From assembly GCF_038811545.1 (NCBI RefSeq), contig NZ_CP133319.1, positions 1 through 64,000 of the forward strand: a stretch of DNA of 64,000 bases, given 5' to 3'. The notes under the pieces were generated by a model. It was given only the letters and a program-made list of their open reading frames with translations, did no database searches and had not been told where the DNA came from. The position numbers were made by a program, and so were the translations under genes. This document shows positions 36,225-58,980 of this stretch, piece by piece. Origin of the DNA: Rhodoligotrophos sp. CJ14 (GTDB lineage: Bacteria > Pseudomonadota > Alphaproteobacteria > Rhizobiales > Im1). Numbering within the stretch: the stretch's first letter is position 1; each line of letters starts with the position of its first letter.

Positions 36225-37123
36225 GCACCGCCATGTTCCCATTCGGGCGTCCCACGGCGATGAGCCTGACCGCGACCCGTGTCTTCTCGAGCAATCCACC
36301 GCTCGATCTCACCCTCGAAAGCGCCTTCTTCTCTCGGCTGAAGATGCGCAATGGCACCTTCAAATTCACGAAGCCCTCGCGTTTTGCTGAGGTCGACCGG
36401 TGGCTTCTGCCATTTGCGAAAGATCGGATCGGGGCCGACAGCGCTGTTCTCGACATCGCGGCCTCAACCGCCCTCACCACGATCGAGCTGATGGACGCAC
36501 TTGCCGTGCAGGGCATGAGCCCGCGGCGCGTGATTGCGACGGATCTCTTTATCGATGCGCATTTGGTGGATGTGGCGCCCGGCATACGGGTCTTGTGTGA
36601 TCCCGATGGCTGGCCATTGCATTATGAGCTGGCGGGGTTCGGCATCAGGGCCTGGCGCCGCAGGCTGGACCTCATAACCCTTGCAGCCGTGCCCCTGATG
36701 CTCGCGCGCGCTGGCCTCGGACCGCGTCTGCGTCGCCTGATCGCCGAAGGGCGATCCCATCCCGTGCGCATGCAAAGCCGCGCGCTGTCGGGACGGAATA
36801 TCGAGCTTGTCGCCAACGACATCTTCGTAAGGGAGCCGCGCTTCGTTGGCGCCTTCGACTTCATCCGTGCCGCGAACATTCTCAATCTCGGCTATTTCGA
36901 TGAGCGCAGGCTGCGCACCGCCATCGCCAATATCCGTGCCTATTGCCGCGAACCCGGCGCGCTCGTCCTGATCGTGAGGACGGGCGATGCCCATCACGAT
37001 GGAACGCTGTTCGAGCTCGACAGAAGCGGAGGGTTCTCGGTTGTCGCCCGGCTTGGGCGCGGCGCGGAGATCGAGCCCCTTGTTCTCCAGGGAAACGTCA
37101 AGAGAGCAGGATGTTGTGAATGA
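36221..37123 (+). CDS. Methyltransferase-like protein with degenerate SAM motif
   Basis: The 300-residue cytosolic protein resembles class I or CheR-like methyltransferases: VLDIAASTALTTIELMDAL occupies the motif I position, VIATDLFID the acidic strand, and DFIRAANILNLGYFDERR the CheR-like motif IV/V. Motif I lacks the usual glycines (DxGxGxG), so SAM binding is doubtful. It overlaps the upstream glycosyltransferase and the downstream lyase gene by four bases each. It could be a modified O-methyltransferase or a non-catalytic partner of the polysaccharide enzymes. Confidence 0.55.
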   Translation: MSTAMFPFGRPTAMSLTATRVFSSNPPLDLTLESAFFSRLKMRNGTFKFTKPSRFAEVDRWLLPFAKDRIGADSAVLDIAASTALTTIELMDALAVQGMSPRRVIATDLFIDAHLVDVAPGIRVLCDPDGWPLHYELAGFGIRAWRRRLDLITLAAVPLMLARAGLGPRLRRLIAEGRSHPVRMQSRALSGRNIELVANDIFVREPRFVGAFDFIRAANILNLGYFDERRLRTAIANIRAYCREPGALVLIVRTGDAHHDGTLFELDRSGGFSVVARLGRGAEIEPLVLQGNVKRAGCCE

Positions 37124-38619
37124 CCCGGATGGGAAATCGCCGGGACCTGGGATGGGTGAGGCACGGTGCAGCGGTGGCGCTGCTGCTCGCCCTCAGCCTT
37201 GCGGCAGCCCATGGCCGCCTTGATCTCGGGCTTGGCGATTTGCCCACCATGCTCGCGGGCACCAGACAGCCTTTGTCCTATATTTCTCCGAAACTGGCCG
37301 ATGGTCGCCAGCGCGCCTTTCCGACGGCCGAGGGCTTTGGCGCCGGCGCGCAAGGCGGTCGCGGCGGAGCCGTCCTCTTCGTGACCACCACCGCGGAGGC
37401 AGGCCCGGGCTCCCTCAGAGCCTGCATTGAAGCCACGGGTCCGCGCACCTGTGTGTTTCGGGTGAGCGGCACGATCACCTTGGAGAAGCGCTCGTTGGTG
37501 GTGACCAACCCCTATCTCACCATCGCCGGCGAGACAGCCCCTGGCGGTGGTATTGCCATTCGCAATGGCCCGCGCCAATTGCGACCATCTCTCGAGATCC
37601 TCACCCATGACGTGATCATGCGGCATTTGCGGCTGCGTCCCGGCCCGCATGCGCTCAAAGCCTGTTGCTCCGGCGCTCTCGGCTTCTACGGGGCCGATGC
37701 CACCAACATCATCATCGATCATATTTCTGCGAGCTGGGGATCGGATGAGACCGTCGATTCCGAAAGTGCGACCTATCTCACCATCCAGTGGAGCCTGTTC
37801 TCCGAGCCCTTGCTGGATGGCGGACCGGGCAAGCGTAACCGTGCCCGCAACATGCTGCTCACCAAAGGCGGTAATTTTTCCATCCACCATAACCTCTTCG
37901 CATTCGGCAAATTCCGCAACCCGCAGATCCAGATGGCCCACCGCCGCGCCAAGGTGGATGTGGTCAACAACGTGCTCTATTCGCCCATCTGGGATTACGT
38001 GATCAGCTTCAGCGATCGTTGGGCCAAGGTCAGGGCCAATGTCGTCGGCAACTATAAGATTGCCGGCGCAAAGGAGAAGGATGATCGCCTCGTCCATCTC
38101 TTCGAGGATGGCAAGAACGGCCACGAGATCTACCTCGCCGACAATTACGATGAAACCTACCGGCCCGATGAGGACCTCCCTGATGAGCTGGTGATCGCCG
38201 AGGCCAACCGCTCGACTGTTGTGGCTGAACCCTTCGAGGTCGCCGATGTCCGGGCCACATCTCCACAACAGGCTTATGACGAGGTGCTGGCGAGGGCAGG
38301 GGCCATCCGTCCCGCCCGCGACGCGGTCGACCTCAGGATCATCGCCAGTGTCCGCAACCGCTCCGGAAGCCTGCTGAAATCATCGCCTGAGGCGGTGGGT
38401 GGCTGGCCCATGCTCGTCAGCACCAAACCTCCGGCGGACGCCGACCAGGACGGAATGGCGGATGACTGGGAGCGCACGGTCGGCCTTTCCCCTGGCGATC
38501 CCAAGGATGGCAATGCCGATCACGATGGCGATGGCTGGACGAATTTCGAGGAATATCTCCATGAGCTGGCAGGAGACGGGCGTGGCATGGACCCCGCCCG
38601 CATGTCCCATGCGCACTGA
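37120..38619 (+). CDS. Secreted pectate-lyase-like (PL1-type) protein with Ca-binding tail
   Basis: This is a right-handed beta-helix protein, probably cleaving a uronate-containing polysaccharide. The 499 residues begin with a signal-type segment (AAVALLLALSLAAAHG, about residues 17-32). The helix domain contains IIIDHISASWGSDETVD and SIHHNLFAFGKFRNPQ, the usual PL1-type motifs around the catalytic side. The tail has calcium-type repeats DADQDGMADDWE and DHDGDGWTNFEEY, as in thrombospondin type 3 or dockerin-like proteins. It is translationally coupled to 36221. Self-polysaccharide trimming is as likely as plant-wall attack. Confidence 0.8.
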   Translation: MTRMGNRRDLGWVRHGAAVALLLALSLAAAHGRLDLGLGDLPTMLAGTRQPLSYISPKLADGRQRAFPTAEGFGAGAQGGRGGAVLFVTTTAEAGPGSLRACIEATGPRTCVFRVSGTITLEKRSLVVTNPYLTIAGETAPGGGIAIRNGPRQLRPSLEILTHDVIMRHLRLRPGPHALKACCSGALGFYGADATNIIIDHISASWGSDETVDSESATYLTIQWSLFSEPLLDGGPGKRNRARNMLLTKGGNFSIHHNLFAFGKFRNPQIQMAHRRAKVDVVNNVLYSPIWDYVISFSDRWAKVRANVVGNYKIAGAKEKDDRLVHLFEDGKNGHEIYLADNYDETYRPDEDLPDELVIAEANRSTVVAEPFEVADVRATSPQQAYDEVLARAGAIRPARDAVDLRIIASVRNRSGSLLKSSPEAVGGWPMLVSTKPPADADQDGMADDWERTVGLSPGDPKDGNADHDGDGWTNFEEYLHELAGDGRGMDPARMSHAH

Positions 38620-45065: not shown

Positions 45066-45734
45066 GTGTTGACCGAAATCCGAGACGAGCCCCAGATCGC
45101 GCGATCTGCATCGCCCTGGCTGGTTATCCAGAGGCTTATTGCGGTCATCGCCCTCTTGCCGGCGCTCATTCCCATGGGATTTGTCGCAGCCGTGATCTGG
45201 CTAACGCTCGGTCGGCCGCTCCTCTTCCGCCAGGTCCGCAGCGGGCAAGGCAACAGGACCTTCACTATCCCCAAGTTCCGCACCATGCATGACTGGCGCG
45301 ATGCGCGGGGAAACCTTCTGCCGGATCATCAGCGCGAAACGCGCATCACCCGTTGGATCAGGCGGGCAAGGCTTGATGAGATCCCGCAGCTTTTCACGAT
45401 CGCGGCGGGCCAGATGAGCTTTGTGGGGCCGCGACCGCTCCGGCCCGAGACGATCGCGAGCTTCGGCGAGCTCGGGCTTGTGCGCGCACTTGTGCCGCCC
45501 GGCCTCACCGGCTGGGCGCAGGTAAACGGCAATATCCTGCTCTCGGATGCGGAAAAGCTGGCCCTCGACATCTGGTATGTTGACCATCGCTCGGTCTGGC
45601 TGGATCTGCGCATCCTGGCGCGGACCATCACCACCATCACGCGCGGCGAGAGGATCGGCGCGCAGGCGCTTGCCCAAGCGAGAGATCATCTTGCCAGGCG
45701 GTCCTGGATGGCAGCCCGAAGGGTGATGTCATGA
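45066..45734 (+). CDS. Initiating sugar-phosphate transferase (ExoY/PglC type)
   Basis: It transfers a sugar-1-phosphate to undecaprenyl phosphate, the first step of repeat-unit assembly. The small 222-residue form has one N-terminal membrane-embedded helix (LIAVIALLPALIPMGFVAAVI) and the catalytic core with FRQVRSGQGNRTFTIPKFRTM, RARLDEIPQL, MSFVGPRPLRPE and PGLTGWAQVNG. The FRTM to DE to PRP to TGWAQV series is diagnostic. The start is GTG 45066. It overlaps the formyltransferase gene by four bases. Galactose, glucose or HexNAc-phosphate are possible donors. Confidence 0.93.
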   Translation: MLTEIRDEPQIARSASPWLVIQRLIAVIALLPALIPMGFVAAVIWLTLGRPLLFRQVRSGQGNRTFTIPKFRTMHDWRDARGNLLPDHQRETRITRWIRRARLDEIPQLFTIAAGQMSFVGPRPLRPETIASFGELGLVRALVPPGLTGWAQVNGNILLSDAEKLALDIWYVDHRSVWLDLRILARTITTITRGERIGAQALAQARDHLARRSWMAARRVMS

Positions 45735-46648
45735 GGATCGCATTTGTCGGTGCCGTCGAAGGCTCGGCCATAGGCCTCAAAGCTCTGATCGATGCGGAGT
45801 TCCCGCCCAGCATCGTGGTGACCCTGCCGCCCGAAGCGCGGTTCCGCCACTCCGATTACGTGGATCTGACGCCACTGGCCAATGCCGCCGGCAGCGCGTT
45901 GCTCCACGCAACCCATGTGAACCGTCCCGAGGTGGTGAACGCGCTGCGTGCCATGGGCGTAGATATCACCCTGGTGATCGGCTGGTCTCAGATCTGCGGG
46001 GAAGCATTCCGCTCGGCCGCGCGCATCGGCAGTATCGGCTTTCATCCAGCCCCATTGCCCCGCCTGCGCGGCCGGGCGGTCATCCCCTGGACGATCCTGC
46101 TTGGCGAAAGCGAAACCGCGGCAAGCCTGTTCTGGCTGGATAATGGGGTGGATAGCGGCCCGATCCTGATGCAGGAGCCCATCGAGGTCTCACCCGAGGA
46201 GACCGCCCGTGGCCTTTATGCCAAGCAGACCGGTGCCTTGGCGCGCATGTTGCCGAAGGCCATCCGGCTGATCCGTGATGGTGAGGCCCCGAAGATCCCC
46301 CAGGACCATGGGGCCGCCACCTACTGCGCCAAGCGTACTCCAGAAGATGGCCGCATCGACTGGCGCGAGCCGGCGGAGGCAATCCTGCGTCTGATCAGAG
46401 CGGTGGGAGACCCCTATCCCGGTGCCTTCACCACCCACAACCGCGGCCGGCTATTCATCGATGAGGCGCGGCTCTTGCCGGACTCGCACCGCTATATCGG
46501 CCTCGCCGGTCAGGTGCAGTGCTATACGCCCGATGGCTTCGCGGTGCGCTGTGGCGATGGCCTTTCAATCAACATCACCCGCTGGCGCCAGGAGCAGGGC
46601 TCCGCGCGGCCAAACCTCCACGCCAAACTCGGGACCCCCGACCAATGA
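45731..46648 (+). CDS. Formyltransferase-family protein (sugar N-formyltransferase candidate)
   Basis: The 305 residues have the Fmt-like N-terminal domain with IGFHPAPLPRLRGRAVIPW and DNGVDSGPIL, and a C-terminal OB-like domain. Against the N-x-H...D catalytic set of Fmt/ArnA enzymes, H105 and D141 are present at the canonical 36-residue distance, but the asparagine position is G103. It is coupled to the ExoY-like gene upstream and the PIG-L deacetylase downstream. Context suggests N-formylation of an amino sugar, as in Brucella O-antigen. A non-canonical acyl donor is also possible. Confidence 0.75.
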   Translation: MRIAFVGAVEGSAIGLKALIDAEFPPSIVVTLPPEARFRHSDYVDLTPLANAAGSALLHATHVNRPEVVNALRAMGVDITLVIGWSQICGEAFRSAARIGSIGFHPAPLPRLRGRAVIPWTILLGESETAASLFWLDNGVDSGPILMQEPIEVSPEETARGLYAKQTGALARMLPKAIRLIRDGEAPKIPQDHGAATYCAKRTPEDGRIDWREPAEAILRLIRAVGDPYPGAFTTHNRGRLFIDEARLLPDSHRYIGLAGQVQCYTPDGFAVRCGDGLSINITRWRQEQGSARPNLHAKLGTPDQ

Positions 46649-47352
46649 TCGACCAGATTGAAGCTCTGGGCCGCGCGCTCGTGATTGCCCCGCATCCCGA
46701 TGACGAGATCTTAGGCGCCGGGGGGACCATTGCCCGGCTCGCCCGAAGCGGTCACGAGGTGCATGTGGCCGTGGTGACCACCGGCCGCCCGCCCGCCTAT
46801 TCCGAGACGCAGATCGCAACCGTGCGAGGAGAGGCCGAACGGGCCCATCGGGCGCTCGGCGTGCGGGAGACGATCTGGCTCGGCATGCCCGCCGCGCAAT
46901 TGTCTGAAACGCCCCATGGCGAGCTCAATGCCGCGCTTCATCATCTTATTCGCGATCTCGACCCGCACACCCTCCTTGTCCCCTTCGTGGGTGACATTCA
47001 CCGTGATCATCAGCTGACCTTTCTGTCGGCCCTCGTGGCGGCAAGGCCTCATCAGGCCCGCTTTCCAGCGATGATCCTCGCCTATGAGACCCTGTCCGAG
47101 ACCAATTGGAATGCGCCTTATCTGAGCCCGGGCTTTCTGCCGAATGTCTTCATCGACATCAGCGACACCCTGCAGGTGAAGCTGGAGGCGATGCGAATGT
47201 TCCGCTCGCAATTGCGCGACTTCCCCCATGAGCGCTCGTCCGAGGCGCTGAATGCATTGGCCATGCTGCGCGGAGCGGCCGTCCATTGCCGCGCGGGAGA
47301 GGCTTTCGTGCTGATCCGGCATGTGCTGCGCGGCCAATCCCTGTCCGCGTAA
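46645..47352 (+). CDS. PIG-L family N-deacetylase
   Basis: It is a zinc-dependent N-deacetylase, probably acting on an acetamido sugar. The 235 residues start MIDQIEALGRALVIAPHPDDE, with the metal-binding PHPDDE at 16-21 and the third metal ligand region DIHRDHQ near 113-119. ATG 46645 overlaps the formyltransferase stop (ATGA); the longer frame from 46519 is inside that gene. A deacetylase directly following a formyltransferase fits a swap of N-acetyl for N-formyl. Small-molecule substrates are an alternative. Confidence 0.9.
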   Translation: MIDQIEALGRALVIAPHPDDEILGAGGTIARLARSGHEVHVAVVTTGRPPAYSETQIATVRGEAERAHRALGVRETIWLGMPAAQLSETPHGELNAALHHLIRDLDPHTLLVPFVGDIHRDHQLTFLSALVAARPHQARFPAMILAYETLSETNWNAPYLSPGFLPNVFIDISDTLQVKLEAMRMFRSQLRDFPHERSSEALNALAMLRGAAVHCRAGEAFVLIRHVLRGQSLSA

Positions 47353-47372
47353 CGTGGCAAAGGAGGTGTCAG

Positions 47373-48584
47373 GTGAACCGCTGGCCCCATTATGACGAGG
47401 AACAGATTGCCGATGTCGCGATGGTTCTGCGCTCGGGCAAGGTCAATGCCTGGACCGGCACCGAAGTCGCAGCCTTCGAGGAGGCCTATGCCGCCTTGCT
47501 CGGCCGAAAGCATGCCATCGCGCTCGCCAACGGCACTCTGGCGCTCGATCTTGCCTTATATGCGATCGGCATCGGCCCGGGTGACGAGGTGATCGTCACA
47601 CCGCGCAGCTTCGTGGCCTCGGCCTCCTGCGTGCCGATGGCCGGTGCCATCCCGGTCTTTGCCGATGTCGATCCGGACAGTCAGGCAATGACCGCTGAGA
47701 CCATTGCCGCGGCGATCACCGAGCGCACCCGGGCGGTGATCATCGTCCATCTGGCAGGCTGGCCCGCGGAGATGGACGAGATCATGGCGCTTGCCCGCCA
47801 CCACGGGCTCATCGTTATCGAGGATTGCGCCCAGGCCCATGGCGCGACCTATCGCGGCCGGCCGGTCGGCAGCTTCGGTGATCTGGCGGCGTTCTCCTTC
47901 TGCCAGGACAAGATCATCACCACGGGCGGAGAGGGCGGTCTGCTCGCCATGGATGATGACATGATCTGGCAGCGCGCGTGGAGCCGGAAGGATCATGGCA
48001 AGAGCCATGATGCAGTGTTCAACCGGGCTCACCCGCGGGGCTTTCGCTGGCTGCATGAGAGCTTCGGCACCAATTACCGCATGACCGGCATTCAGGCGGC
48101 ACTGGGTCTGCGCCAGCTTGAGCGCTTGCCCGATTGGATCGCCATTAGGGCAGCGAACGCGGCAATCCTGATGCGCGCCTGCCGGCAGAGTCCGGGCCTG
48201 CGCACGCCGGCGCCGCCCGACCATATCGGCCATGCCTGGTATAGGTTCTACACCTTCATCGAGCCCGAGCATTTGCGGCCCGGCTGGGACCGCGACCGCA
48301 TTCTGGAGGCGATCACCGCGCGCGGCGTTTCCTGCTTTGCGGGCAGCTGCTCGGAAATCTACCGCGAACGGGCTTTCGCGCAGGCTGGCCTCGGACCGCG
48401 CAAGCCCTTACCCGTCGCCAAGCAACTGGGTGAGACGAGCCTCGCCTTCCTGGTCGACCCCTGTCAGGACCAGGGCACCTTGGAAGCTGCGGCCCGGACC
48501 ATTGCCGATGTGATGAGCGAGGCGACTGGGGCGAGGCAAGCAACTGGACTTGCGCGCGATCCCTTGGCGCATGCGGAGGGCTGA
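47373..48584 (+). CDS. DegT/DnrJ/EryC1-type sugar aminotransferase
   Basis: It is a PLP-dependent enzyme that adds an amino group to a keto-sugar nucleotide. The 403 residues start at GTG 47373, preceded by AGGAGG. The PLP lysine is K180 in SFCQDKIITTGGEGG, with ALANGTLALDLAL and IEDCAQAHGATYRG as cofactor contacts. The keto-sugar could come from the CapD/WbpM-like dehydratase at 55331. It ends in an overlap of one base with the ATP-grasp gene. C3 or C4 specificity is not evident. Confidence 0.93.
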   Translation: MNRWPHYDEEQIADVAMVLRSGKVNAWTGTEVAAFEEAYAALLGRKHAIALANGTLALDLALYAIGIGPGDEVIVTPRSFVASASCVPMAGAIPVFADVDPDSQAMTAETIAAAITERTRAVIIVHLAGWPAEMDEIMALARHHGLIVIEDCAQAHGATYRGRPVGSFGDLAAFSFCQDKIITTGGEGGLLAMDDDMIWQRAWSRKDHGKSHDAVFNRAHPRGFRWLHESFGTNYRMTGIQAALGLRQLERLPDWIAIRAANAAILMRACRQSPGLRTPAPPDHIGHAWYRFYTFIEPEHLRPGWDRDRILEAITARGVSCFAGSCSEIYRERAFAQAGLGPRKPLPVAKQLGETSLAFLVDPCQDQGTLEAAARTIADVMSEATGARQATGLARDPLAHAEG

Positions 48585-49549
48585 TGATGGACCTGACCCT
48601 CTTGGTGTCATCGGCCGGCCGGCGCGTGGCATTGATCGAGTGTTTCCGCAGGTCCGCCAAGGCCAATGACATCAACCTCAAAGTGCTCGCCTGCGATCGT
48701 GAGCCGGCTCTGAGTGCTGCATGCAAGGCCGCCGATCGCGCCTTCGTTGTGCCCGGCTGTACGCATCCCGCCTTCATCGAGACCATGCTCGAGATCGTCA
48801 GCGATTTCGGAGTGAAGCTTGTCGTTCCGACGATAGACCCGGAACTTGCCCCACTGGCCGAAGCCGTGCCGCGCTTCGCCGAGCTCGGCGCCCGTGTCCA
48901 TGTGAGCCCGCCATCCGTGATCGAGATCGTCCGCGATAAGCTTCGCACCGTCGAGGTTCTGGGAAGGGCGGGAGTGCCGGTTCCGATCACGGTCTCTCTC
49001 AATGCGGCCCGCAACTGCTCGGGTCCAAAGCTTTGGCCGATGCTGCTGAAGCCTGTGGCAGGCAGTGCCAGTCGCGGCATTCGCATCATCCGCAGCCAGA
49101 GTGAGCTTCCGGACGAGCCGGAAGAGCCCATGGTCCTCCAGCAATTGCTCAAGGGCCCGGAATTCACGGTCAACATGTTCGTGGACCAGGAGGGCACCTT
49201 GCGCAGCGCCATCGCCCATCGCCGTCTCAGGGTTCGGGCAGGGGAGGTGGAGAAAGGCAGGACCGAGCGCGAGCCGCTCTTCAGGATGCTGGCAGAGCAG
49301 GTCTGTGTCGCTTTGCCTGAGGCGCGTGGCGTGATGTGTTTCCAGCTGATCCTCGATGAAACCGCCGGTCCCTGCGTGTTCGAGGTCAATGCCCGCTTCG
49401 GCGGTGGATATCCGCTTGCTCAATATGCGGGCGCTGACTATGCCGGCTGGCTCTTGCGCGAGGTGGCAGGCCTGCCATCCATTGCCCATGACAACTGGCG
49501 CGACGGCGCCTTGATGCTGCGCTACGACGCGGCCTTTTTCGAGGGGTGA
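48584..49549 (+). CDS. ATP-grasp ligase, CarB-like
   Basis: It probably activates a carboxylate with ATP and joins it to an amine or other nucleophile. The 321 residues have an N-terminal pre-ATP-grasp Rossmann part (LLVSSAGRRVALIECFRR), the ATP-grasp core with LLKPVAGSASRGIRII and VLQQLLKGPEFTVNMFVD, and metal-binding CVFEVNARFGGGYPLA. In this operon the amine made by the DegT enzyme or the deacetylase is a logical acceptor, for example for an amino acid. That link is inference. The start overlaps the DegT stop. Confidence 0.8.
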   Translation: MMDLTLLVSSAGRRVALIECFRRSAKANDINLKVLACDREPALSAACKAADRAFVVPGCTHPAFIETMLEIVSDFGVKLVVPTIDPELAPLAEAVPRFAELGARVHVSPPSVIEIVRDKLRTVEVLGRAGVPVPITVSLNAARNCSGPKLWPMLLKPVAGSASRGIRIIRSQSELPDEPEEPMVLQQLLKGPEFTVNMFVDQEGTLRSAIAHRRLRVRAGEVEKGRTEREPLFRMLAEQVCVALPEARGVMCFQLILDETAGPCVFEVNARFGGGYPLAQYAGADYAGWLLREVAGLPSIAHDNWRDGALMLRYDAAFFEG

Positions 49550-49559
49550 GGATCGCGCG

Positions 49560-50309
49560 ATGCCGGCACCGTTCACCCTCGTCTTCGACCTCGATGACAC
49601 GCTCTATCTTGAGCGCGACTTCGTGCGCAGCGGCTTTACGGCGGTCGGACGCTGGCTCCGAGCGGAGAAGGGCATCCGTGGTTTTGAAGCGATCTGCACG
49701 GAACTTTTCGCGGCAGGCGAGCGGATGCAAGTATTCAACCAGGCGCTGGACCATCTCGGCCTCGGGGCCGAGCCGGACCTGCTTGCAAAGCTCATACATG
49801 TCTACCGCACGCACGAGCCCCAAATTACGCTGGCCGATGATGCTCGCCGCTATCTCGAGAGCGCCACGGGTCCGCATGCGCTGATCACGGATGGCTTTCT
49901 CGCAACCCAAGAGGCGAAGGTGAGGGTACTCAAGCTCGACCAAAGCTTCGGTCAGGTTCTGTGCACGGCTTGCCTCGGTGCCGGTTTTGGTAAGCCTCAT
50001 CCGCGATGTTTCGAGATCACCGAAGCCTGGGCGCGTCCCTTCGGCCGGCCTTTGGTCTATGTCGCGGACAATCCGCTCAAGGATTTCGTTACCCCTAAGG
50101 CGCGCGGCTGGCTGACCGTGCAGGTCGCGCGGCCGGAGCGGGTTCATCTCTGTGCAGCACCCGATGCCCGCTATGAACCCCATGCCAGCGTTGCGAGCCT
50201 CGACGAGCTGGATGAGTGCCTCCATGCACTGACGCGAAACAAACCCGCTGGGATTTTCCTGACCGGCTCGGAGGCGTTCGCGTCTTTGGCGACGGAGGGT
50301 TCTCGCTGA
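49560..50309 (+). CDS. HAD-superfamily hydrolase
   Basis: This cytosolic phosphatase-type protein of 249 residues has nucleophile motif I DLDDTLY (about residues 10-16), motif II ITDG, motif III GKPHPRCFEI and motif IV ADNPLKDF. It has a helical cap between motifs I and II. It lies 10 bases after the ATP-grasp gene, so it probably removes phosphate from a pathway intermediate or a sugar phosphate. No specific substrate is evident. The last 20 residues are non-conserved in appearance. Confidence 0.85.
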   Translation: MPAPFTLVFDLDDTLYLERDFVRSGFTAVGRWLRAEKGIRGFEAICTELFAAGERMQVFNQALDHLGLGAEPDLLAKLIHVYRTHEPQITLADDARRYLESATGPHALITDGFLATQEAKVRVLKLDQSFGQVLCTACLGAGFGKPHPRCFEITEAWARPFGRPLVYVADNPLKDFVTPKARGWLTVQVARPERVHLCAAPDARYEPHASVASLDELDECLHALTRNKPAGIFLTGSEAFASLATEGSR

Positions 50310-50345
50310 AGATGCTTGGCCGTTCCACAACGTAAGGAGCAGGAT

Positions 50346-51707
50346 GTGACCCCTTCGGTCGCTGTTCGAATGCTCGGCCGCCGGGCCCGCCGCTTCTGGC
50401 GGGAAGAAGCCGCCCTTCGGAGGCGTCTCATCGACACCGGTCACCTTTTGACCGGCAATGCCGCCGGCTCGGTCATCGGGCTTCTGGCCTTCATCGTGAC
50501 GGCGCGCGCGTTGGGACCGACCGACTATGGCATGCTCGCGCTGACCTATAGCTATGTCCGGGCGATCGAAAGACTGATCGGTTTCCAGTCCTGGCAGCCG
50601 CTCATCAAATATGGCGCCGAGCTCAAGGGGCGCGAACGTCACGATGATTATCGCGCCCTGCTCAAATTTGGCCTGCTCGTCGATGTAGGCGCGGCCATCG
50701 CCGCCTATCTCGTCGCGGTGGGCTTTGCGCTCATCCTGGGACCGCTCGTCGGCATCGGTGAGCCCGAGCTGCACCAGGTTCTGATCTTCGCGACCGTCCT
50801 GCTGTTTCAGATCAATGGGTTCCCCACGGCAATCATCAGGCTCGCCGGCCAGTTTAAGCTGGTGGCCTATGGCACGCTGGTGAGCGGGCTTGTCCGCCTC
50901 ATCCTGTGCGCGATGGGGCTGTTCACAGGGCAGGGGCTCTTCTATTTCATTATCATCTGGATGATCACCCAGATCCTCGGTGCGATCACCCTTCTGGGTT
51001 TTGCCCTGTGGGAAGTGCGCCGGCAGGGAGCGGGGGATTTCCTTCGCGCCCCCCTTGCGGGAGTGACGCGCAGGTTCAAGGGCCTCTTGAGCTTCACCAT
51101 CGGCAGCAATGTGGAGCTCACCATTCGCTCAAGTGCCAATGAATTGGACACCTTGTTGGTAGGCATGCTGGCGGGGCCGACGGCGGCGGGCCTTTACCAC
51201 ATTGCCAAGCGTATGGCGCGTCTCGTCCTGCAATTCGGCGTGCAGGTCCAGGCGGTCCTTTACCCCGATGTCGCCCGGCTTTGGGCGCAACGCGCCTATG
51301 GTGAGTTCCGCCGCGCCGTCATGCAGATCGAGGTGATGCTGGCCGCTGTCGGACTGGGGCTGATCTTGGCAACCGCCATCGCCGTAAAGCCGCTTCTGGC
51401 CTGGACCGCGGGCCCGAGCTTCGTTGATGCAGCTCCCCTGGCGATCGTGCAGATGGTGGCCGTGGCGATGACCCTCAGCGGCAGCGCGGTGCGCACGGCG
51501 CTTCTGGCCATGGGACGCCAGCCCGCAGTGCTCAGGGTGGTGACGGCCGCAACAGTCATGTTCCATGTGACCGCCTTTGCAACGATCCCATTTATTGGTG
51601 CCATAGGCGGCAATATCGCCCATGTGGTGATGGCGTTGATCTGGATTTCGGGCCTGACGATCCTCTACCGCTCTGCGCTGAAGGCCGATGAGCCCTTGCC
51701 GATTTAG
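50346..51707 (+). CDS. Polysaccharide flippase, Wzx/MurJ-like superfamily
   Basis: This polytopic membrane protein of 453 residues has about twelve to fourteen hydrophobic helices. It starts after an amphipathic, Arg-rich N-terminus (MLGRRARRFWREEAALRRR), with GSVIGLLAFIVTARALGPTDYGMLAL as the typical first-helix block. It is expected to flip undecaprenyl-linked repeat units. GTG 50346 is chosen for AAGGAG six bases upstream; TTG 50316 is in frame. It is the last gene of the operon from 43737 and converges on the next glycosyltransferase with a 4-base overlap. Confidence 0.9.
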   Translation: MTPSVAVRMLGRRARRFWREEAALRRRLIDTGHLLTGNAAGSVIGLLAFIVTARALGPTDYGMLALTYSYVRAIERLIGFQSWQPLIKYGAELKGRERHDDYRALLKFGLLVDVGAAIAAYLVAVGFALILGPLVGIGEPELHQVLIFATVLLFQINGFPTAIIRLAGQFKLVAYGTLVSGLVRLILCAMGLFTGQGLFYFIIIWMITQILGAITLLGFALWEVRRQGAGDFLRAPLAGVTRRFKGLLSFTIGSNVELTIRSSANELDTLLVGMLAGPTAAGLYHIAKRMARLVLQFGVQVQAVLYPDVARLWAQRAYGEFRRAVMQIEVMLAAVGLGLILATAIAVKPLLAWTAGPSFVDAAPLAIVQMVAVAMTLSGSAVRTALLAMGRQPAVLRVVTAATVMFHVTAFATIPFIGAIGGNIAHVVMALIWISGLTILYRSALKADEPLPI

Positions 51708-53037: not shown

Positions 53038-54228
53038 ATGTGCCGCGCCCCCATCACGGTCTGTTTTCCGTTCATCGGTGACGAGATCGGAGGTAGCCAC
53101 ATCTCGGCGATCAAGCTGATCGAGGCGCTGAACCCCTCGCTCGTGCGGCCGCTGATTGCGCTGCAGGCAGAGGCGGGTCCCGTGGCCGACTATCTCCGGG
53201 AGCGGCGCTTGCCCTACCTCCTGGCACCGGGCCGCCCTCTTGCCAAGCGCGGAGATGTGGCCAAGCTCGCCCGCTCGATCATGCATGTTCTGTGCGATAC
53301 CGGACGCCTGACCCGGTTCTTGACCGACAATGCGGTTGATGTCGTGCACACCAATGACGGCCGCACCCATGCGCAGTGGATGATCCCCGCCCGCCTGGCG
53401 GGTGCGCGCCACATCTGGCACCACCGCGGTGATCCCGATGCGCTGGGCGTCAACTATTTCGCCCCGATCGTCTCCGATCACGTGATCACCGTTTCGAGCT
53501 TCGCGCGGCCCAGACATCCGATCATCGCCATAGGCTCAAAGCTCTCGGTCGTGCACAGTCCTTTCGATGTTCCATCCAGAATGGGTGACCGTGAGGCAGC
53601 CCGCGCCCAATTGCTGAAAGCCCTGAATGTCGCGCCCGAGACGCGCTTTCTCGGCTATTTCGGCCTGCTGATCGAGCGTAAGCGGCCGATTGCCTTCGTC
53701 GAGGCCGTGGCCGCCTTCGTCGAGAAATGCCCGGACATTCCCGTCATGGGCCTCGTCTTCGGCGTGCCGGGAACGGAATCCCCTCACTATGACCGGCTGA
53801 TCACCGAGCGCGCCCGCGCGCTCGGGATTGAAGATCAGATCCGATTGATGGGGTTTCGCCAGCCGGTCGAGCCCTGGATGCAGGCGATGGACGCGCTGCT
53901 CGTCCCCGCCGTGCGCGAGCCCTTTGGCCGGACGCTCATCGAGGCGATGTTCCTCGGCACCCCGGTGGTCGCGACGAGCGACGGTGGCAATCTCGAAGCG
54001 ATCGAGCATGGCGTGACGGGATATCTGGTGCCACCCGATGAACCCGCTGCCTTCGTTGAGCCGGTGCGCGCGCTATTGGTCAACGAGAGGCAGCGTCACG
54101 CGATCGTCGATGCGGCGCGCGCCCGGGCCCTGGCGAGCTACAGCGTCGAGCGCCATGTGGCTGAGCTGACCGCCATCTATCGCGCATGCGTTTTCCCGGG
54201 AGAAAGCCGTGATGTCAGTCATGCCTAA
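53038..54228 (+). CDS. GT4-type glycosyltransferase
   Basis: The 396-residue GT-B transferase starts MCRAPITVCFPFIGDEIGGS, a donor/acceptor Rossmann opening with GGSHISAIKLIEAL. The C-terminal domain contains FLGYFGLLIERKRPIAFVEAV and PAVREPFGRTLIEAMFLGTPVVAT with the E-x7-E pair. Its last 17 bases overlap the sulfotransferase gene, so the two are coupled and may act on the same residue, one adding the sugar and the other its sulfate. Donor unknown. Confidence 0.87.
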   Translation: MCRAPITVCFPFIGDEIGGSHISAIKLIEALNPSLVRPLIALQAEAGPVADYLRERRLPYLLAPGRPLAKRGDVAKLARSIMHVLCDTGRLTRFLTDNAVDVVHTNDGRTHAQWMIPARLAGARHIWHHRGDPDALGVNYFAPIVSDHVITVSSFARPRHPIIAIGSKLSVVHSPFDVPSRMGDREAARAQLLKALNVAPETRFLGYFGLLIERKRPIAFVEAVAAFVEKCPDIPVMGLVFGVPGTESPHYDRLITERARALGIEDQIRLMGFRQPVEPWMQAMDALLVPAVREPFGRTLIEAMFLGTPVVATSDGGNLEAIEHGVTGYLVPPDEPAAFVEPVRALLVNERQRHAIVDAARARALASYSVERHVAELTAIYRACVFPGESRDVSHA

Positions 54229-55111
54229 CAAGGCGAGCTTAAGCCTTGAAGACATCGACTTCCTGATCATCGGCGCAACCAAAAGCGCAACCACCTGGCT
54301 CCAGAAATCCCTGCAGCTCGATCCGGCCGTGGCCATGCCCGACCCGGAGCTGCATTACTTCAGTCGGGAGTTCGGCCGCGGCGATGCCTGGTATCTCGAG
54401 CAGTTTCCGAAAGAGGGCGCGGCGCGTTTGCTGGGCGAGAAGTCGAACTCGTACCTCGAGAGCGCGACGGCCGCCCAGCGGATCGCGCGCCTGCTGCCGC
54501 ACGTCAAGCTGATCGCTCAGCTCCGCAACCCCATCGACCGCGCCTATTCCGACTACTGCATGATGTTTCGCCGTGGTGAGGTCACCGGCAATATCGAGGC
54601 CTATCTCGATCCACGCGGTCCTCATGAGACGCGCTTGCTCCGGGCGGGACTGTATTTCGAGCAGCTGAAGGCCTTTTACGACAGCTATCCCGCCGGTCAG
54701 ATCCATGTGACCCTCTATGAGACGGTGAACACCGATCCGGTCGGCCATCTTGCTGCTGTGCGTCGATTTCTGGGCCTCGGCGCAACAGACACGCCGCCTC
54801 TGCTCACCCAGAAGGTGAAGGACAAGACCGAACCGGTGCTGCCGCCTCATCTTCGGCGCTGGCTCGCGCCCGTGAAGCCCGTATTAGCGCCCGTGCGCAA
54901 CTCGCCTTTGGTCCGGACCTTGCGCAATGCGATGGCGTCCGAGATGCGGTATCCCGAGCTCACCTGCCGGCTGCGGGACCGGCTTGCCGAGCATTACCAC
55001 AGAGACGTCGAAGCCTTGAGCCACCTGGTCGGCCGCGATCTGTCGGGCTGGCTCACCGGGCCGTCAGTCCCAGCGCGCGCGGCCGGCGCCATGTCAGGCA
55101 AGTGCGTGTGA
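54212..55111 (+). CDS. PAPS-dependent sulfotransferase
   Basis: It transfers sulfate from PAPS to a carbohydrate. The 299 residues show the 5'-phosphosulfate loop IIGATKSATTW (about 19-29, K24) and the 3'-phosphate-binding AQLRNPIDRAYSDYCM block. It resembles NodH and heparan-type sulfotransferases. ATG 54212 with GGAGA upstream is chosen; GTG 54209 adds one residue. No membrane segment is seen. The substrate is probably a repeat-unit sugar of the local polysaccharide. PAPS synthesis genes are not in this window. Confidence 0.9.
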   Translation: MSVMPNKASLSLEDIDFLIIGATKSATTWLQKSLQLDPAVAMPDPELHYFSREFGRGDAWYLEQFPKEGAARLLGEKSNSYLESATAAQRIARLLPHVKLIAQLRNPIDRAYSDYCMMFRRGEVTGNIEAYLDPRGPHETRLLRAGLYFEQLKAFYDSYPAGQIHVTLYETVNTDPVGHLAAVRRFLGLGATDTPPLLTQKVKDKTEPVLPPHLRRWLAPVKPVLAPVRNSPLVRTLRNAMASEMRYPELTCRLRDRLAEHYHRDVEALSHLVGRDLSGWLTGPSVPARAAGAMSGKCV

Positions 55112-55330: not shown

Positions 55331-57493
55331 ATGGTGGACGATAATTTTGCCGCGCGTCAGACGCCGCAAGCGAACCTTCCCACTCCCTCCCGATTGGATA
55401 AGCTGGTCTCGACCATTGCCGATCTCGACGGCCTCCGTCGGCGGACCGCCGTCTGGATCGGACAGGGCAGGGCGAGTTTCGCCTATCGCAGCGCCAGGAC
55501 GAGGCTGCGCTCGATCACCCGGGCAACTCTGCGCAATCGGGATCTCTACGTGCTTGATCTCGGGCTCGCGGCCTTCGCCCTGATTTTGGCGACGGCGCTG
55601 CGCATCGGGCCGCAGGAGCTTGCAGCAGCCCCCGACCGCATTCGGTCTCTAGCGGAGATGTCCTTTGTCTTCACCGGCATTTGCGCCATCACCTTTCCAG
55701 TGATCGGCCTCTACAATCGCAATTGGAAATATGCTTCGATCCTCGATTATTTGAGCCTGGTCCGCGCAGTCGTCATCGCCTCGCTGATCCTGATCACCGG
55801 CATGTTCTTCTATTCCCGTTTGGCCTTCGTGCCGCGCTCGACGATCGCCATCGAGATCGTGATGCTGGTCTCGCTCTTGGCCGCAACCAGGCTTGGCTTC
55901 AGACGCGAAGACCTGAAGCTCTTCAAGCCTCTCGCCCCCGCCGCACGGCGCGAGCCGCTGGTGCCGGTTCTCATGGTCGGGGTAGGCCAGGAAGCGGATA
56001 TCTATCTTCGCGCGCTGCAACGCGACCGCACGGCCTCATACTGGCCCGTCGGTTTTCTGAGCCACTCCGAAGCAGAGATTGGCTCCACCCTGCGCGGCGT
56101 GCCGGTGCTCGGCACCATGAAGGATTTCGACGCGGTCTTTGCCGAGCTCGAAGGGCGTGGGAAGCGTCCACGCCATCTGATTTTCACCATGCCCCTCTCA
56201 TCCGTTGAGGCGGAAGAGGCCGAGCGCCTGATTGCGGCGGCCGACCGTCGGGGCATGGTGGCCTCGCGCCTGAGTTCCGCCACCGAGCTTCGCAATCCCC
56301 TGCTCAAGAAGGAGTTCGAGCTGCGCCCGATCGAGCTCACCGATCTCCTGGAGCGTCCGCAAACCGCCTTCGACATCGCGGCCTTGCATCGCTTCGTGTC
56401 CGGACGGCGCGTTCTGGTCACCGGGGCCGGTGGCTCGATCGGCAGCGAGCTCACACGGCAGCTTGCAGCCCTTGGGCCGGCCCACATGGCTCTGCTCGAC
56501 AATTGCGAGTTCAATCTCTACACGATCGACCTGGACCTGCGCGACAACTACCCCGCTATATCGCGCTCGGCCCATCTTTGTGACGTGCGTGATCCCCGGC
56601 GTGTCAACGAGATGTTTGCACGGCACAGGCCCGAGCTGGTCTTCCATGCCGCAGCGCTGAAGCACGTGCCCATGGTCGAGCTTAACCCTTGCGAGGGAGC
56701 GCTCACCAATGTCTGCGGCACGGTGAATGTGGCGGATGCCGCCAAGCGCTGGGGCGCCGCGGCCATGGTGCAGATCTCGACCGACAAGGTCGTGAACTCG
56801 ACCAGCGTGATGGGTGCAACCAAGCGGCTGGCCGAGCTCTATTGCCAGGCCCTCGACATCGAGGGGATTGCCGATATGAGCGCTCCCCGCTTCATGACGG
56901 TTCGCTTCGGCAATGTCTTGGGATCGAGCGGCTCATTGATCCCCTTGTTCAAGAGCCAGCTTGCCCGCGGCGGTCCGCTGACCGTCACCCATCCTGACAT
57001 GGAGCGGTTTTTCCTGACAATCAGGGAAGCCGTGCAGCTCACGCTCCAGGCCTCGGCCTACGGCCTTGAGAAAAATCTCGGGCAAGGCGAGATCTTTGTC
57101 CTCGACATGGGTGAGCCCATCAAGATCGTGGACATCGCCCGGCGCATGATCCGGCTCGCCGGCTACACCCCCGACCGCGACATCAAGATCGAGATCATCG
57201 GATGTCGTCCCGGCGAGAAGCTGTTCGAGGAACTGTTCGATAGCGCCGAGCGGCGGGTGACGCCACCGGTCCCCGGTGTGCTTGGTGCGGTGCCATCGCC
57301 AGTGCCGCTCCCCGTGCTGCGCCATGCCTTCGAGCAGCTGCAATCCTGTGCCGAGGCAGGTGATAGCGAGGGGCTGTTCCGGGCCATTCGCACCGTGTTG
57401 CCCAACTACCGCAAGGAAGATCAAACCGAACGCGAGGCACCCTTCGCAATGGCCGGTCATCAGGCTCGGCCTGCGATACACGTGGTTCACTGA
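55331..57493 (+). CDS. CapD/WbpM-type UDP-HexNAc 4,6-dehydratase, membrane-anchored
   Basis: It probably dehydrates UDP-GlcNAc to a 4-keto-6-deoxy intermediate. The 720 residues have four N-terminal membrane segments (about residues 75-190), a CoA-binding-like domain, then the extended SDR domain with LVTGAGGSIGSELTRQL (about 362-378), CDVRDP and the SMK-type active site in STDKVVNSTSVMGATK. Methionine in place of the usual tyrosine is normal for WbpM/FlaA1 relatives. It heads an operon with the PL10-like, Ugd and FkbM-fusion genes. It could feed keto-sugar to the DegT enzyme at 47373. Confidence 0.92.
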   Translation: MVDDNFAARQTPQANLPTPSRLDKLVSTIADLDGLRRRTAVWIGQGRASFAYRSARTRLRSITRATLRNRDLYVLDLGLAAFALILATALRIGPQELAAAPDRIRSLAEMSFVFTGICAITFPVIGLYNRNWKYASILDYLSLVRAVVIASLILITGMFFYSRLAFVPRSTIAIEIVMLVSLLAATRLGFRREDLKLFKPLAPAARREPLVPVLMVGVGQEADIYLRALQRDRTASYWPVGFLSHSEAEIGSTLRGVPVLGTMKDFDAVFAELEGRGKRPRHLIFTMPLSSVEAEEAERLIAAADRRGMVASRLSSATELRNPLLKKEFELRPIELTDLLERPQTAFDIAALHRFVSGRRVLVTGAGGSIGSELTRQLAALGPAHMALLDNCEFNLYTIDLDLRDNYPAISRSAHLCDVRDPRRVNEMFARHRPELVFHAAALKHVPMVELNPCEGALTNVCGTVNVADAAKRWGAAAMVQISTDKVVNSTSVMGATKRLAELYCQALDIEGIADMSAPRFMTVRFGNVLGSSGSLIPLFKSQLARGGPLTVTHPDMERFFLTIREAVQLTLQASAYGLEKNLGQGEIFVLDMGEPIKIVDIARRMIRLAGYTPDRDIKIEIIGCRPGEKLFEELFDSAERRVTPPVPGVLGAVPSPVPLPVLRHAFEQLQSCAEAGDSEGLFRAIRTVLPNYRKEDQTEREAPFAMAGHQARPAIHVVH

Positions 57494-58980
57494 TGACCTT
57501 GGGCGTGCGAGCATGCTTTAGCAGTGATGGAGGCCTTAGCCTTCCCGTGCTCGCGCTGGCCGCCTGCCTCATGGCCGACCCCGCCACGGCCGGGAACAAG
57601 GGCGAAGACAGCCGCATCCTAAACACCCTGGAGCAAGCCGCCGAATTTTATTCAGGCCTCTCGCTGAAAGGCGCCTATGTCTGGGAATATTCGGCCGATC
57701 TGAGGGTTCGGAAAGGTGAGGGCAAGGTTGGGCCCACCACGGCCTGGGTGCAGCCGCCGGGAACACCGGCCGTCGGGGCCGCATTTCTGCGCCTGTATGA
57801 GATCACCGATAAGCCTGCCTGGCTCGGGGCGGCGCGCTATGCTGCGGAAGCCTTGATCGAGACGCAGCTCATTTCGGGCGGGTGGTATAATGCGATCGAG
57901 CTTGACCCCGAAGCCCAGGACCGCTGGTGCTATCGCGCGCGGGGTATAACGGCCGAGACTTGCGACAGGATCGAGGACAACCGGGCGCGCAACCGCACCC
58001 TGCTCGATGATGACAACACCCAGAGCGCTTTGCGCCTTCTCATCTGGCTTGACCGCATCTTCGAGGGCAAGGACGGAGCCGTGCGCGATGCAGCCCTGTA
58101 TGCGCTCAAGCGGCTGTCCGAAGCGCAATATCCCGTGGGCGCCTGGCCGGTCATGTTCGACAAAGCGCCAAAGATGGACGAGATCAAGCCGGCGCCCGCC
58201 GCAAGCCTTCCCGCGGATTGGTCGCGCACATGGGTCAAGCCGGCCGGCGGCCCCTATTACATCCTCAATGACAATCTGATGCGCGACATGGTGCACCTGT
58301 TTCTCGTCGCCGAGCAGCACTTCGCCGAGCCCAAATATCTTGAGCGCGCCAAGCGCGCCGGCGAGTTTCTGCTGAAGGCGCAATTGCCTGAACCGCAGCA
58401 GGGCTGGGCCCAGACCTATAACGAGACCATGCAGCCCGTTTGGGGTCGCAAGTTTGAACCACCGAGCGTTGCCTCGCGCGAGACCGCAGGTGCGATCACC
58501 TGCCTGATCGAGCTCTATGGCCGCACCGGTGACAAACGCTTTCTCGACGCAGCAAAGAAAGCCGGTGCCTGGCTCGAGAAGGTGCGCCTTCCCGACGGCG
58601 ATTGGGCGCGCTTCTATGAGCTTGCGACCAACCGGCCGATCTATGTCGGCAATGACGAGAAGCTGACCTATGAGCCGGTCGACCTTTTGAGCCATTACGG
58701 CATGAAGATCCGCAAAGGGATCCCCGAAGCCCTTGCGCTCCTCGCCCAGGCTGAGAAGGGGGAGAATCCCCCCAAGCCTCTCTGGCCCTCCATTGCCGAC
58801 ACGATGCCGGAGGCGGAGGTCAAGCAGCGCACCGCCACATTGCTCGCGACCATCGATAGTGAGGGGCGCTGGCTGGAGGACGGCGAGGGTCAGGAGGATG
58901 CTTGGATCCGCAGTGCCACATTCATCGATGCCGTCTTCGTCATGGCGAAAGAACTCGAAAACAAGCGCCAGAGGAGATGA
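57493..58980 (+). CDS. Secreted PL10-like polysaccharide lyase
   Basis: The 495 residues begin with an export signal holding a lipobox-like LAAC (C25), so it may be a lipoprotein or be cleaved further on (PATAG). The remainder is an alpha/alpha-toroid-type domain with repeats such as WLGAARYAAEALIETQ, DDDNTQSALRLLIWLD and FLDAAKKAGAWLEKV, plus YPVGAWPVMF, resembling PL10 pectate lyases. Uronates are probably the target, consistent with the adjacent Ugd gene. A glycan-binding or epimerase-like role is possible. The start shares one base with the dehydratase stop. Confidence 0.68.
   Translation: MTLGVRACFSSDGGLSLPVLALAACLMADPATAGNKGEDSRILNTLEQAAEFYSGLSLKGAYVWEYSADLRVRKGEGKVGPTTAWVQPPGTPAVGAAFLRLYEITDKPAWLGAARYAAEALIETQLISGGWYNAIELDPEAQDRWCYRARGITAETCDRIEDNRARNRTLLDDDNTQSALRLLIWLDRIFEGKDGAVRDAALYALKRLSEAQYPVGAWPVMFDKAPKMDEIKPAPAASLPADWSRTWVKPAGGPYYILNDNLMRDMVHLFLVAEQHFAEPKYLERAKRAGEFLLKAQLPEPQQGWAQTYNETMQPVWGRKFEPPSVASRETAGAITCLIELYGRTGDKRFLDAAKKAGAWLEKVRLPDGDWARFYELATNRPIYVGNDEKLTYEPVDLLSHYGMKIRKGIPEALALLAQAEKGENPPKPLWPSIADTMPEAEVKQRTATLLATIDSEGRWLEDGEGQEDAWIRSATFIDAVFVMAKELENKRQRR

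Follow-up and report, generated by a model that had tools for sequence, protein, structure and literature searches.

The window analysed here is a 64,000-nucleotide stretch of Rhodoligotrophos sp. CJ14 (contig NZ_CP133319.1, positions 1 to 64,000), and within it seven genes form a packed run at 45066-51707 in which neighbours overlap by no more than 4 bp or lie at most 20 bp apart. On the + strand these encode a PglC-like initiating phosphoglycosyl transferase (PGT; 45066-45734, 222 aa; PF02397, 160 bits), a formyltransferase (FMT; 45731-46648, 305 aa; Formyl_trans_N and Formyl_trans_C), a PIG-L family de-N-acetylase (46645-47352, 235 aa; PF02585, 92.7 bits, zinc motif PHPDDE ... DIHRDH), a DegT/DnrJ aminotransferase (47373-48584, 403 aa; a predicted UDP-4-keto-6-deoxy-GlcNAc 4-aminotransferase), an ATP-grasp ligase of the PRK12767 type (48584-49549, 321 aa; PylC-like_N and ATP-grasp_3), a HAD phosphatase (49560-50309, 249 aa; PF00702, DxD motif D10 and D12) and a Wzx flippase (50316-51707; PF01943/PF13440). 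The PGT/FMT and FMT/PIG-L junctions are 4-bp overlaps and DegT and ATP-grasp overlap by 1 bp; gaps of 20 bp (PIG-L to DegT), 10 bp (ATP-grasp to HAD) and 6 bp (HAD to Wzx) separate the others. Two starts listed with the open reading frames are too early: we take 46645 rather than 46519 for PIG-L, and for DegT a GTG at 47373, preceded by the Shine-Dalgarno-like AAAGGAGG, rather than 47286. The original prediction had proposed a five-gene cassette, FMT through HAD, at 45731-50309, with its members overlapping or within 20 bases of one another and bracketed by an initiating transferase and a flippase. All five genes are indeed present on one strand, domain matches bear out their families, spacing within the cassette runs from 1-4 bp overlaps to 10-20 bp gaps, and PGT and Wzx flank it as described. 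Catalytic motifs across the cassette are largely intact. Further along the + strand lies a sulfotransferase gene (54209-55111; PF13469), and a sulfotransferase is found in most related clusters.

A sixth pathway enzyme, absent from the original list, is encoded 5 kb downstream at 55331-57493 (+ strand): a PglF/CapD-type membrane dehydratase (PF02719, 348 bits), predicted to act on UDP-GlcNAc as a 4,6-dehydratase, whose best PDB match is C. jejuni WlaL (PglF; 5bju, 260 bits) and which would supply the DegT substrate. DegT itself matches 7L7X (Pcryo_0638) at 437 bits, against 196 for the runner-up. Pcryo_0638 is a characterised UDP-4-keto-6-deoxy-GlcNAc aminotransferase (PMC8040287), and its ligand residues W-P, D156, Q159, Q183, K185, K215, F335 and G337 are kept in 14/14 DegT orthologues, with Y229 changed to Phe. 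DegT is thus predicted to be of the type that makes UDP-2-acetamido-4-amino-2,4,6-trideoxy-glucose (UDP-QuiNAc4N). The best PDB match of the PGT is PglC (8e37/8g1n, 124 bits). Given such strong homology, a core pathway of dehydration, amination by DegT and transfer by the PGT is very probable. An amino-sugar pathway had been predicted in which transamination proceeds separately. Transamination, the deacetylase/formyltransferase pair, the ligase and the phosphatase do occur together elsewhere, but the DegT type places transamination at the core of a bacillosamine-type pathway rather than on a route of its own.

In ordinary bacillosamine operons an N4-acetyltransferase occupies the slot between the initiating transferase and the aminotransferase. 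Deinococcus and N. gonorrhoeae have the order PGT-acetyltransferase-DegT-dehydratase, and Agrobacterium and Sulfitobacter have PGT-acetyltransferase-DegT. Three acetyltransferase queries found no match in the window or in 13 related loci, and the same queries do find one in N. gonorrhoeae. The diNAcBac pathway of Psychrobacter cryohalolentis (Pcryo_0612/0638/0637) uses an aminotransferase of the family to which the window DegT belongs, with ligand residues kept, but in that pathway Pcryo_0637 acetylates the amine (PMC8040287), and no such acetyltransferase was found in the window. The acetyltransferase is replaced by two separable modules, FMT with PIG-L and ATP-grasp with HAD, arranged round the one DegT. 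The five genes are not a single unit: other loci carry one module and not the other.

Relatives were gathered by genome searches and by tblastn against 72,556 plasmids. As the original prediction had suggested could be checked, the five families do cluster elsewhere: all five orthologues lie together in nine further loci from two alphaproteobacterial orders, which excludes a chance neighbourhood, and the PglF-type dehydratase is always alongside, save in one partial locus where it was not located. Of 297 genomes in the order, 4 have PIG-L orthologues and 5 have ATP-grasp orthologues, with 3 genomes in common (hypergeometric p ~9e-6, uncorrected for kinship). S. meliloti and one further genome (G294) have PIG-L and FMT without orthologues of the ATP-grasp and HAD genes and carry a different ATP-grasp and a PHP phosphatase instead. 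The claim that no described system has this exact gene set agrees with our literature search, which found none, although close relatives are known (PglB2/GATDH and nodP2-SMb21248, below).

Within the first module, PIG-L was found in 103 and FMT orthologues in 100 of the 72,556 plasmids, in the same genera. We infer a functional partnership from this near-perfect co-occurrence. In most loci PGT and PIG-L, or PGT, FMT and PIG-L, adjoin or overlap. The zinc residues of PIG-L (H17, D20, H119 and H122, in HPDDE and HxxH motifs) are present in 12/12 orthologues, the sole motif variant being PHADDE in R. gallicum, and its nearest PDB relatives are diacetylchitobiose deacetylase and BshB. A bacillithiol enzyme was considered and rejected (77.7 bits against a cut-off of 182.5). 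To our knowledge, PIG-L enzymes act on GlcNAc-type substrates, and we know of none that acts on a 2,4-diamino-6-deoxy sugar. FMT, whose nearest PDB relatives are 10-formyl-THF dehydrogenase and ArnA, retains H105 and D141, but the Asn of the N-x-H motif is Gly (GFHP) in 15/15 FMT sequences, so that formyl transfer by this protein is only predicted. It is not the housekeeping Met-tRNA formyltransferase, as it scores 124 bits against a cut-off of 201.5 and travels with PIG-L. In two loci (L009 and L010) PIG-L is absent and FMT is fused to the PGT. Between this pair of genomes the dN of FMT is 0.46, compared with 0.12-0.17 for PGT, DegT, ATP-grasp and Wzx and 0.25 for HAD; that is, the fused FMT without PIG-L evolves about three times faster. 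Its pN/pS of 0.48 indicates purifying selection, and FMT is therefore not simply dead in these loci. The faster evolution could also reflect replacement by a different FMT.

The second module can stand alone. A Phocaeicola operon (PGT-GRASP-HAD-DegT-PglF) has ATP-grasp and HAD as the only occupants of the slot, and in Priestia (DegT-PGT-GRASP-HAD) they lie beside it; in both operons N4 is expected to be the sole free amine. Four loci (L009, L010, L041 and L039) have ATP-grasp without PIG-L, and the enzyme can thus do without a C2 amine exposed by deacetylation. Structures were modelled from alignment rows drawn solely from the window and the genomes. The AlphaFold model of ATP-grasp (pLDDT 87) has 2pn1, PurK, PylC and L-amino acid ligases as its nearest folds, and E267, N269 and R271 of a C-terminal E-x-N-x-R are invariant in 18 sequences, distant ones included. 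A contig scan with the single ATP-grasp protein returned one distant archaeal match only. For HAD, D10-L-D12, K145 and D170/D175 are kept in all 13 orthologue rows; its model (pLDDT 86) is nearest to N-acetylneuraminate-9-phosphate phosphatase, but at a TM of ~0.6 and with generic HAD phosphatases as the only matches, which is too weak for naming a substrate. HAD belongs with the ATP-grasp enzyme rather than with the deacetylation step. Judging from co-occurrence, the ATP-grasp protein is likely to be an amide ligase acting on the DegT-made sugar, and the recurrence beside it of HAD, or of a PHP phosphatase in Sinorhizobium, suggests that the acyl donor is phosphorylated.

Our working model, to which we give a probability of roughly 0.5, is that the cassette assembles the first, lipid-linked sugar and caps its amines, with the ligase acting on N4 and PIG-L and FMT on N2. 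The PglF-type dehydratase would generate UDP-4-keto-6-deoxy-GlcNAc, which DegT would aminate at C4 to give UDP-QuiNAc4N. ATP-grasp would then form an amide between the C4 amine and a carboxylic acid, for which glycerate and an amino acid are candidates. Its HAD partner would strip a phosphate either from that acid or from the ligation product, and the PGT would transfer the sugar phosphate to undecaprenyl phosphate. PIG-L would remove the C2 N-acetyl group and FMT would formylate the freed amine, after which glycosyltransferases would extend the chain and Wzx would flip it. The product is probably an unusual sugar with two amines that stands first in a surface polysaccharide, itself probably sulfated and of the Wzx/Wzy type. 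We infer the amine used by each enzyme, the nature of the acid and the order in which PIG-L and the PGT act. Taken by itself, N2 as the site of PIG-L and FMT is a tentative assignment, falling a little short of an even chance. It is rather doubtful that the full scheme holds, in which PIG-L and FMT form an obligate pair swapping the C2 N-acetyl for N-formyl on lipid-linked 2,4-diamino-2,4,6-trideoxyglucose and the acyl group that ATP-grasp and HAD place on C4 comes from a phosphorylated acid. Several points run against our model: L009 and L010 keep both FMT and ATP-grasp, yet only one free amine is expected there; S. meliloti and G294 have the first module without the second; and the missing N-x-H Asn of FMT and the GlcNAc-type substrates of PIG-L enzymes, both noted above, also count against it.

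The alternative that survives best, though we regard it as improbable, is a cycle in which N4 of UDP-QuiNAc4N carries a transient formyl group, added by FMT, while the PGT transfers the sugar, and PIG-L then deformylates it to leave a free C4 amine. DegT, FMT, PGT and PIG-L would correspond to ArnB, ArnA, ArnC and ArnD, respectively; the polysaccharide would bear a free, positively charged amine, and ATP-grasp/HAD would have a different residue as target or would act once the formyl group is gone. With PIG-L as a deformylase, the logical order (aminotransferase, formyltransferase, lipid-carrier transfer, deacylase) is that of ArnBACD in Ara4N synthesis. This accounts for FMT and PIG-L being nearly always paired and overlapping the PGT gene, fits with ArnA among the nearest relatives of FMT and gives a simple product for S. 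meliloti. However, the cassette has neither the NodB-fold enzyme ArnD nor the GT2 ArnC: its deacylase has the PIG-L fold (PF02585), its transferase is a PF02397 PGT, its predicted sugar is a hexose rather than a pentose and its FMT, unlike ArnA-type enzymes, is missing the N-x-H Asn. The PIG-L enzymes known to us also cleave off acetyl groups or longer acyl chains and not formyl groups; a formylation cycle followed by ATP-grasp acylation would be wasteful; and faster FMT evolution upon PIG-L loss is not predicted.

It is slightly less probable still that ATP-grasp places an amino acid on N4 and FMT formylates its alpha-amine, with PIG-L acting independently. FMT matches the Met-tRNA formyltransferase family across both domains, and that enzyme formylates an amino acid alpha-amine; FMT adjoins ATP-grasp in Ensifer, Rhizobium and Palleronia, and ATP-grasp relatives are partnered by PLP enzymes of amino-acid type and by a GNAT in Sphingobium (L040) and in G816 (L021). 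The distribution of FMT nevertheless tracks PIG-L rather than ATP-grasp, as S. meliloti and G294 illustrate. Equally improbable is the reverse regiochemistry, a permanent N4 formyl with ATP-grasp acylating the C2 amine exposed by PIG-L, for while the PGT-FMT fusions mirror neisserial PglB, whose fused acyltransferase acts on N4, the four loci with ATP-grasp and no PIG-L argue against it, as does the fact that FMT orthologues are hardly ever found without PIG-L.

The two closest known systems are neisserial PglB2/GATDH and the S. meliloti nodP2-SMb21248 cluster. According to two neisserial studies (PMC11130364, PMC6959607), PglB2 is a PGT plus ATP-grasp protein leading to the 4-glyceramido sugar GATDH (4-glyceramido-2-acetamido-2,4,6-trideoxyhexose), and N. 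oralis is noted to have a HAD hydrolase as well as a formyl transferase. The core is shared: identities to the gonococcal pgl locus, which is without PglB2, are 35% for the dehydratase, 41% for the PGT domain and 55% for the aminotransferase. As judged by domain type and place, ATP-grasp takes the place of the N4-acetyltransferase in both. In PglB2 it is fused to the PGT, whereas the genes are separate in the window and in every related locus, with HAD following ATP-grasp in the window; a phylum-level search of 398 genomes found no PGT-fused ATP-grasp of the PglB2 type. The window further differs in having PIG-L and its linked FMT, and its product would enter a polysaccharide and not pilin. 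The S. meliloti cluster, the predicted maker of a Clr/cAMP-dependent sulfated polysaccharide (PMC5498481), resembles the window in its PIG-L (SMb21247, 67% identity), DegT (SMb21248, 67%) and FMT (55%) and in gathering a PGT, PglF, sulfotransferase, glycosyltransferases and Wzx/Wzy/Wza. It differs in that its ATP-grasp is distant (27%) and lies, with the PHP phosphatase, beside sulfate-activation genes.

A phosphorylated acyl donor would be a step not described for neisserial GATDH in the literature examined. If the acyl swap is true, the first sugar of the polysaccharide would have both nitrogens non-acetylated, as a result of enzymes editing its acyl groups while it is bound to the carrier lipid. 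More generally, a modular slot beside the PGT and aminotransferase genes, in which an acetyltransferase, ATP-grasp with HAD or FMT with PIG-L can be exchanged, would aid prediction of N-acyl groups from sequence. Our model would also provide a chemical prediction for polysaccharide clusters that include the cAMP-regulated sulfated-polysaccharide cluster of Sinorhizobium, which has been discussed as a possible symbiotic signal.

The five genes that the original prediction described as close-set are indeed tightly packed. The gene for the initiating phosphoglycosyl transferase (PGT, 45066-45734) overlaps the formyltransferase gene (FMT, 45731-46648) by 4 bp, and FMT overlaps the gene for a PIG-L family de-N-acetylase (46645-47352) by another 4 bp. 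A gap of 20 bp separates PIG-L from the predicted sugar 4-aminotransferase DegT (47373-48584), whose GTG start codon is preceded by AAAGGAGG and whose end overlaps the ATP-grasp ligase gene (48584-49549) by 1 bp. The HAD phosphatase gene (49560-50309) follows after 10 bp and leads, across 6 bp, into the flippase gene Wzx (from 50316). The surrounding cluster includes Wzy, Wzc, Wza, several GT4-type glycosyltransferases, a sulfotransferase and UDP-glucose dehydrogenase, some of these names being given from sequence only, as well as two pectate-lyase-like genes (37120-38619 and 57493-58980); relatives of the first of these were found again in most related clusters.

Most likely, the window encodes the synthesis of UDP-QuiNAc4N and the loading of a derivative of it onto undecaprenyl phosphate, an assignment that is homology-based and that we consider strong. 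Our reasoning for this is that: (i) the best structure match of DegT was 7L7X (Pcryo_0638; 437 bits vs 196 for the runner-up), an enzyme that aminates UDP-4-keto-6-deoxy-GlcNAc (PMC8040287) and whose reported ligand-holding residues are kept in the window DegT and in all 13 orthologues compared, with the exception of Tyr229, which is replaced by Phe; (ii) the dehydratase (55331-57493) is closest to C. jejuni WlaL/PglF and the PGT to PglC; and (iii) a single N. gonorrhoeae locus matches the window PGT (41%), DegT (55%) and dehydratase (35%). In the gonococcal locus an acetyltransferase sits between PGT and DegT. PGT-acetyltransferase-DegT operons, with or without an adjoining dehydratase, occur in Deinococcus, Sulfitobacter, Agrobacterium and Neisseria, and their acetyltransferases had a match in 0 of the 14 window-type loci.

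The five families do co-occur elsewhere. Orthologues of all five were found in the window and nine further loci, sometimes as one operon and sometimes split into two blocks separated by as much as about 34 kb within one cluster: two of the genomes (G055 and G229) belong to the same taxonomic order as the window, and the others are Ensifer adhaerens, E. canadensis, Rhizobium gallicum, Roseibium, Ruegeria, Palleronia and Leisingera. PIG-L and FMT occur without ATP-grasp/HAD orthologues in Sinorhizobium meliloti and G294, and ATP-grasp/HAD without PIG-L in G041 and G081. Among 72,556 plasmid records, 103 carried a PIG-L orthologue and 100 an FMT orthologue, from identical genera and matched at genus level rather than per record (Sinorhizobium 76/73, Ensifer 8/8, Rhizobium 7/7, Roseibium 5/5, Labrenzia 4/4, and Leisingera, Ruegeria and Palleronia 1/1 each); as most Sinorhizobium records are near-identical strains, few independent events are represented. 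A Ruegeria sp. B32 plasmid (L034, 270-24226) carries a large inverted duplication around one single FMT, with Wzx, Wzy, sulfotransferase, Wza, two glycosyltransferases, HAD, ATP-grasp and a nitroreductase present twice; its second FMT is located in PGT-FMT-PIG-L.

The S. meliloti counterpart is the nodP2-SMb21248 cluster (PIG-L, SMb21247; DegT, SMb21248), for which a Clr/cAMP-controlled role in making an unknown sulfated polysaccharide was proposed (PMC5498481). On S. meliloti pSymB (L037, 321-2047) and at a second locus (L052, 16764-18493), both in clusters without the ATP-grasp/HAD orthologues, the gene for a PHP-domain phosphatase overlaps that for a distantly related ATP-grasp enzyme (27-28% identity) and adjoins sulfate-activation genes and an NAD epimerase. 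This is once more a ligase beside a phosphatase, here of a different fold.

ATP-grasp and HAD are most simply read as an N4-acylating module because in Phocaeicola (PGT, ATP-grasp, HAD, DegT, PglF; no FMT or PIG-L) and Priestia (DegT, PGT, ATP-grasp, HAD) the C4 amine is the sole amine supplied by DegT. Other ATP-grasp relatives are partnered with PLP enzymes, an epimerase or GNAT, as expected if the partner provides the acid. The predicted ATP-grasp model has a fold like PurK, PylC and L-amino acid ligases, and the closest known precedent would be Neisseria PglB2, the PGT/ATP-grasp protein behind the 4-glyceramido sugar GATDH (PMC11130364, PMC6959607). Of 297 genomes from the order, 5 have a close orthologue of the window ATP-grasp enzyme; in a class sample of 385 genomes, the window's genome alone had one. 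On a Segatella copri plasmid (L038, 1768-5666), genes for an adenylation-domain protein, an acyl carrier protein, an AAC(3)-type acetyltransferase and alanine racemase lie upstream of PGT, ATP-grasp, glycosyltransferases, HAD and DegT, and are possibly another acyl supply for this module. In Leisingera sp. S132 (L036, 32380-35534), an asnB-type amidotransferase and a GDSL esterase immediately precede ATP-grasp-HAD.

PIG-L was probably lost on the G041/G081 branch, given that both genomes group beside the window and G055 in the DegT and ATP-grasp trees (support 100/100 and 92/98). Exactly these two have PGT and FMT in a single open frame (L009 12173-13786, 537 aa; L010 6785-8422, 545 aa), a natural fusion that ties FMT to the PGT step. 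Between them FMT dN is 0.46 vs 0.12-0.17 for PGT, DegT, ATP-grasp and Wzx, about three times their rate (HAD, 0.25), and FMT is still constrained (pN/pS 0.48). Between the window and G055, which both have PIG-L, FMT and DegT are equally slow (0.188 and 0.189). Thus FMT depends on PIG-L or gained a new substrate upon PIG-L loss, although the fast FMT could instead be a replacement by another formyltransferase.

The PIG-L zinc ligands, the DxD of HAD and E267, N269 and R271 of ATP-grasp are all retained. FMT keeps His105 and Asp141 and has Gly at the position of the ArnA/Fmt Asn, which is likewise missing from its top match, 10-formyl-THF dehydrogenase, in the alignment. The entire subfamily of predicted formyltransferases (the window protein and 14 relatives) reads G-F-H-P instead of N-x-H, as in that dehydrogenase. 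An Arn-like cycle of formylation and deformylation is unlikely, and slightly more doubtful still are the reverse regiochemistry, with FMT at N4 and ATP-grasp at the N2 freed by PIG-L, and, to a similar degree, attachment of an amino acid by ATP-grasp followed by its formylation by FMT. A surface sugar with N-formyl at C2 is already known, namely GalNFmA of P. aeruginosa O6. With two modules and two possible amines, our data suggest a division of labor in which ATP-grasp and HAD would act at N4, and PIG-L and then FMT at N2.
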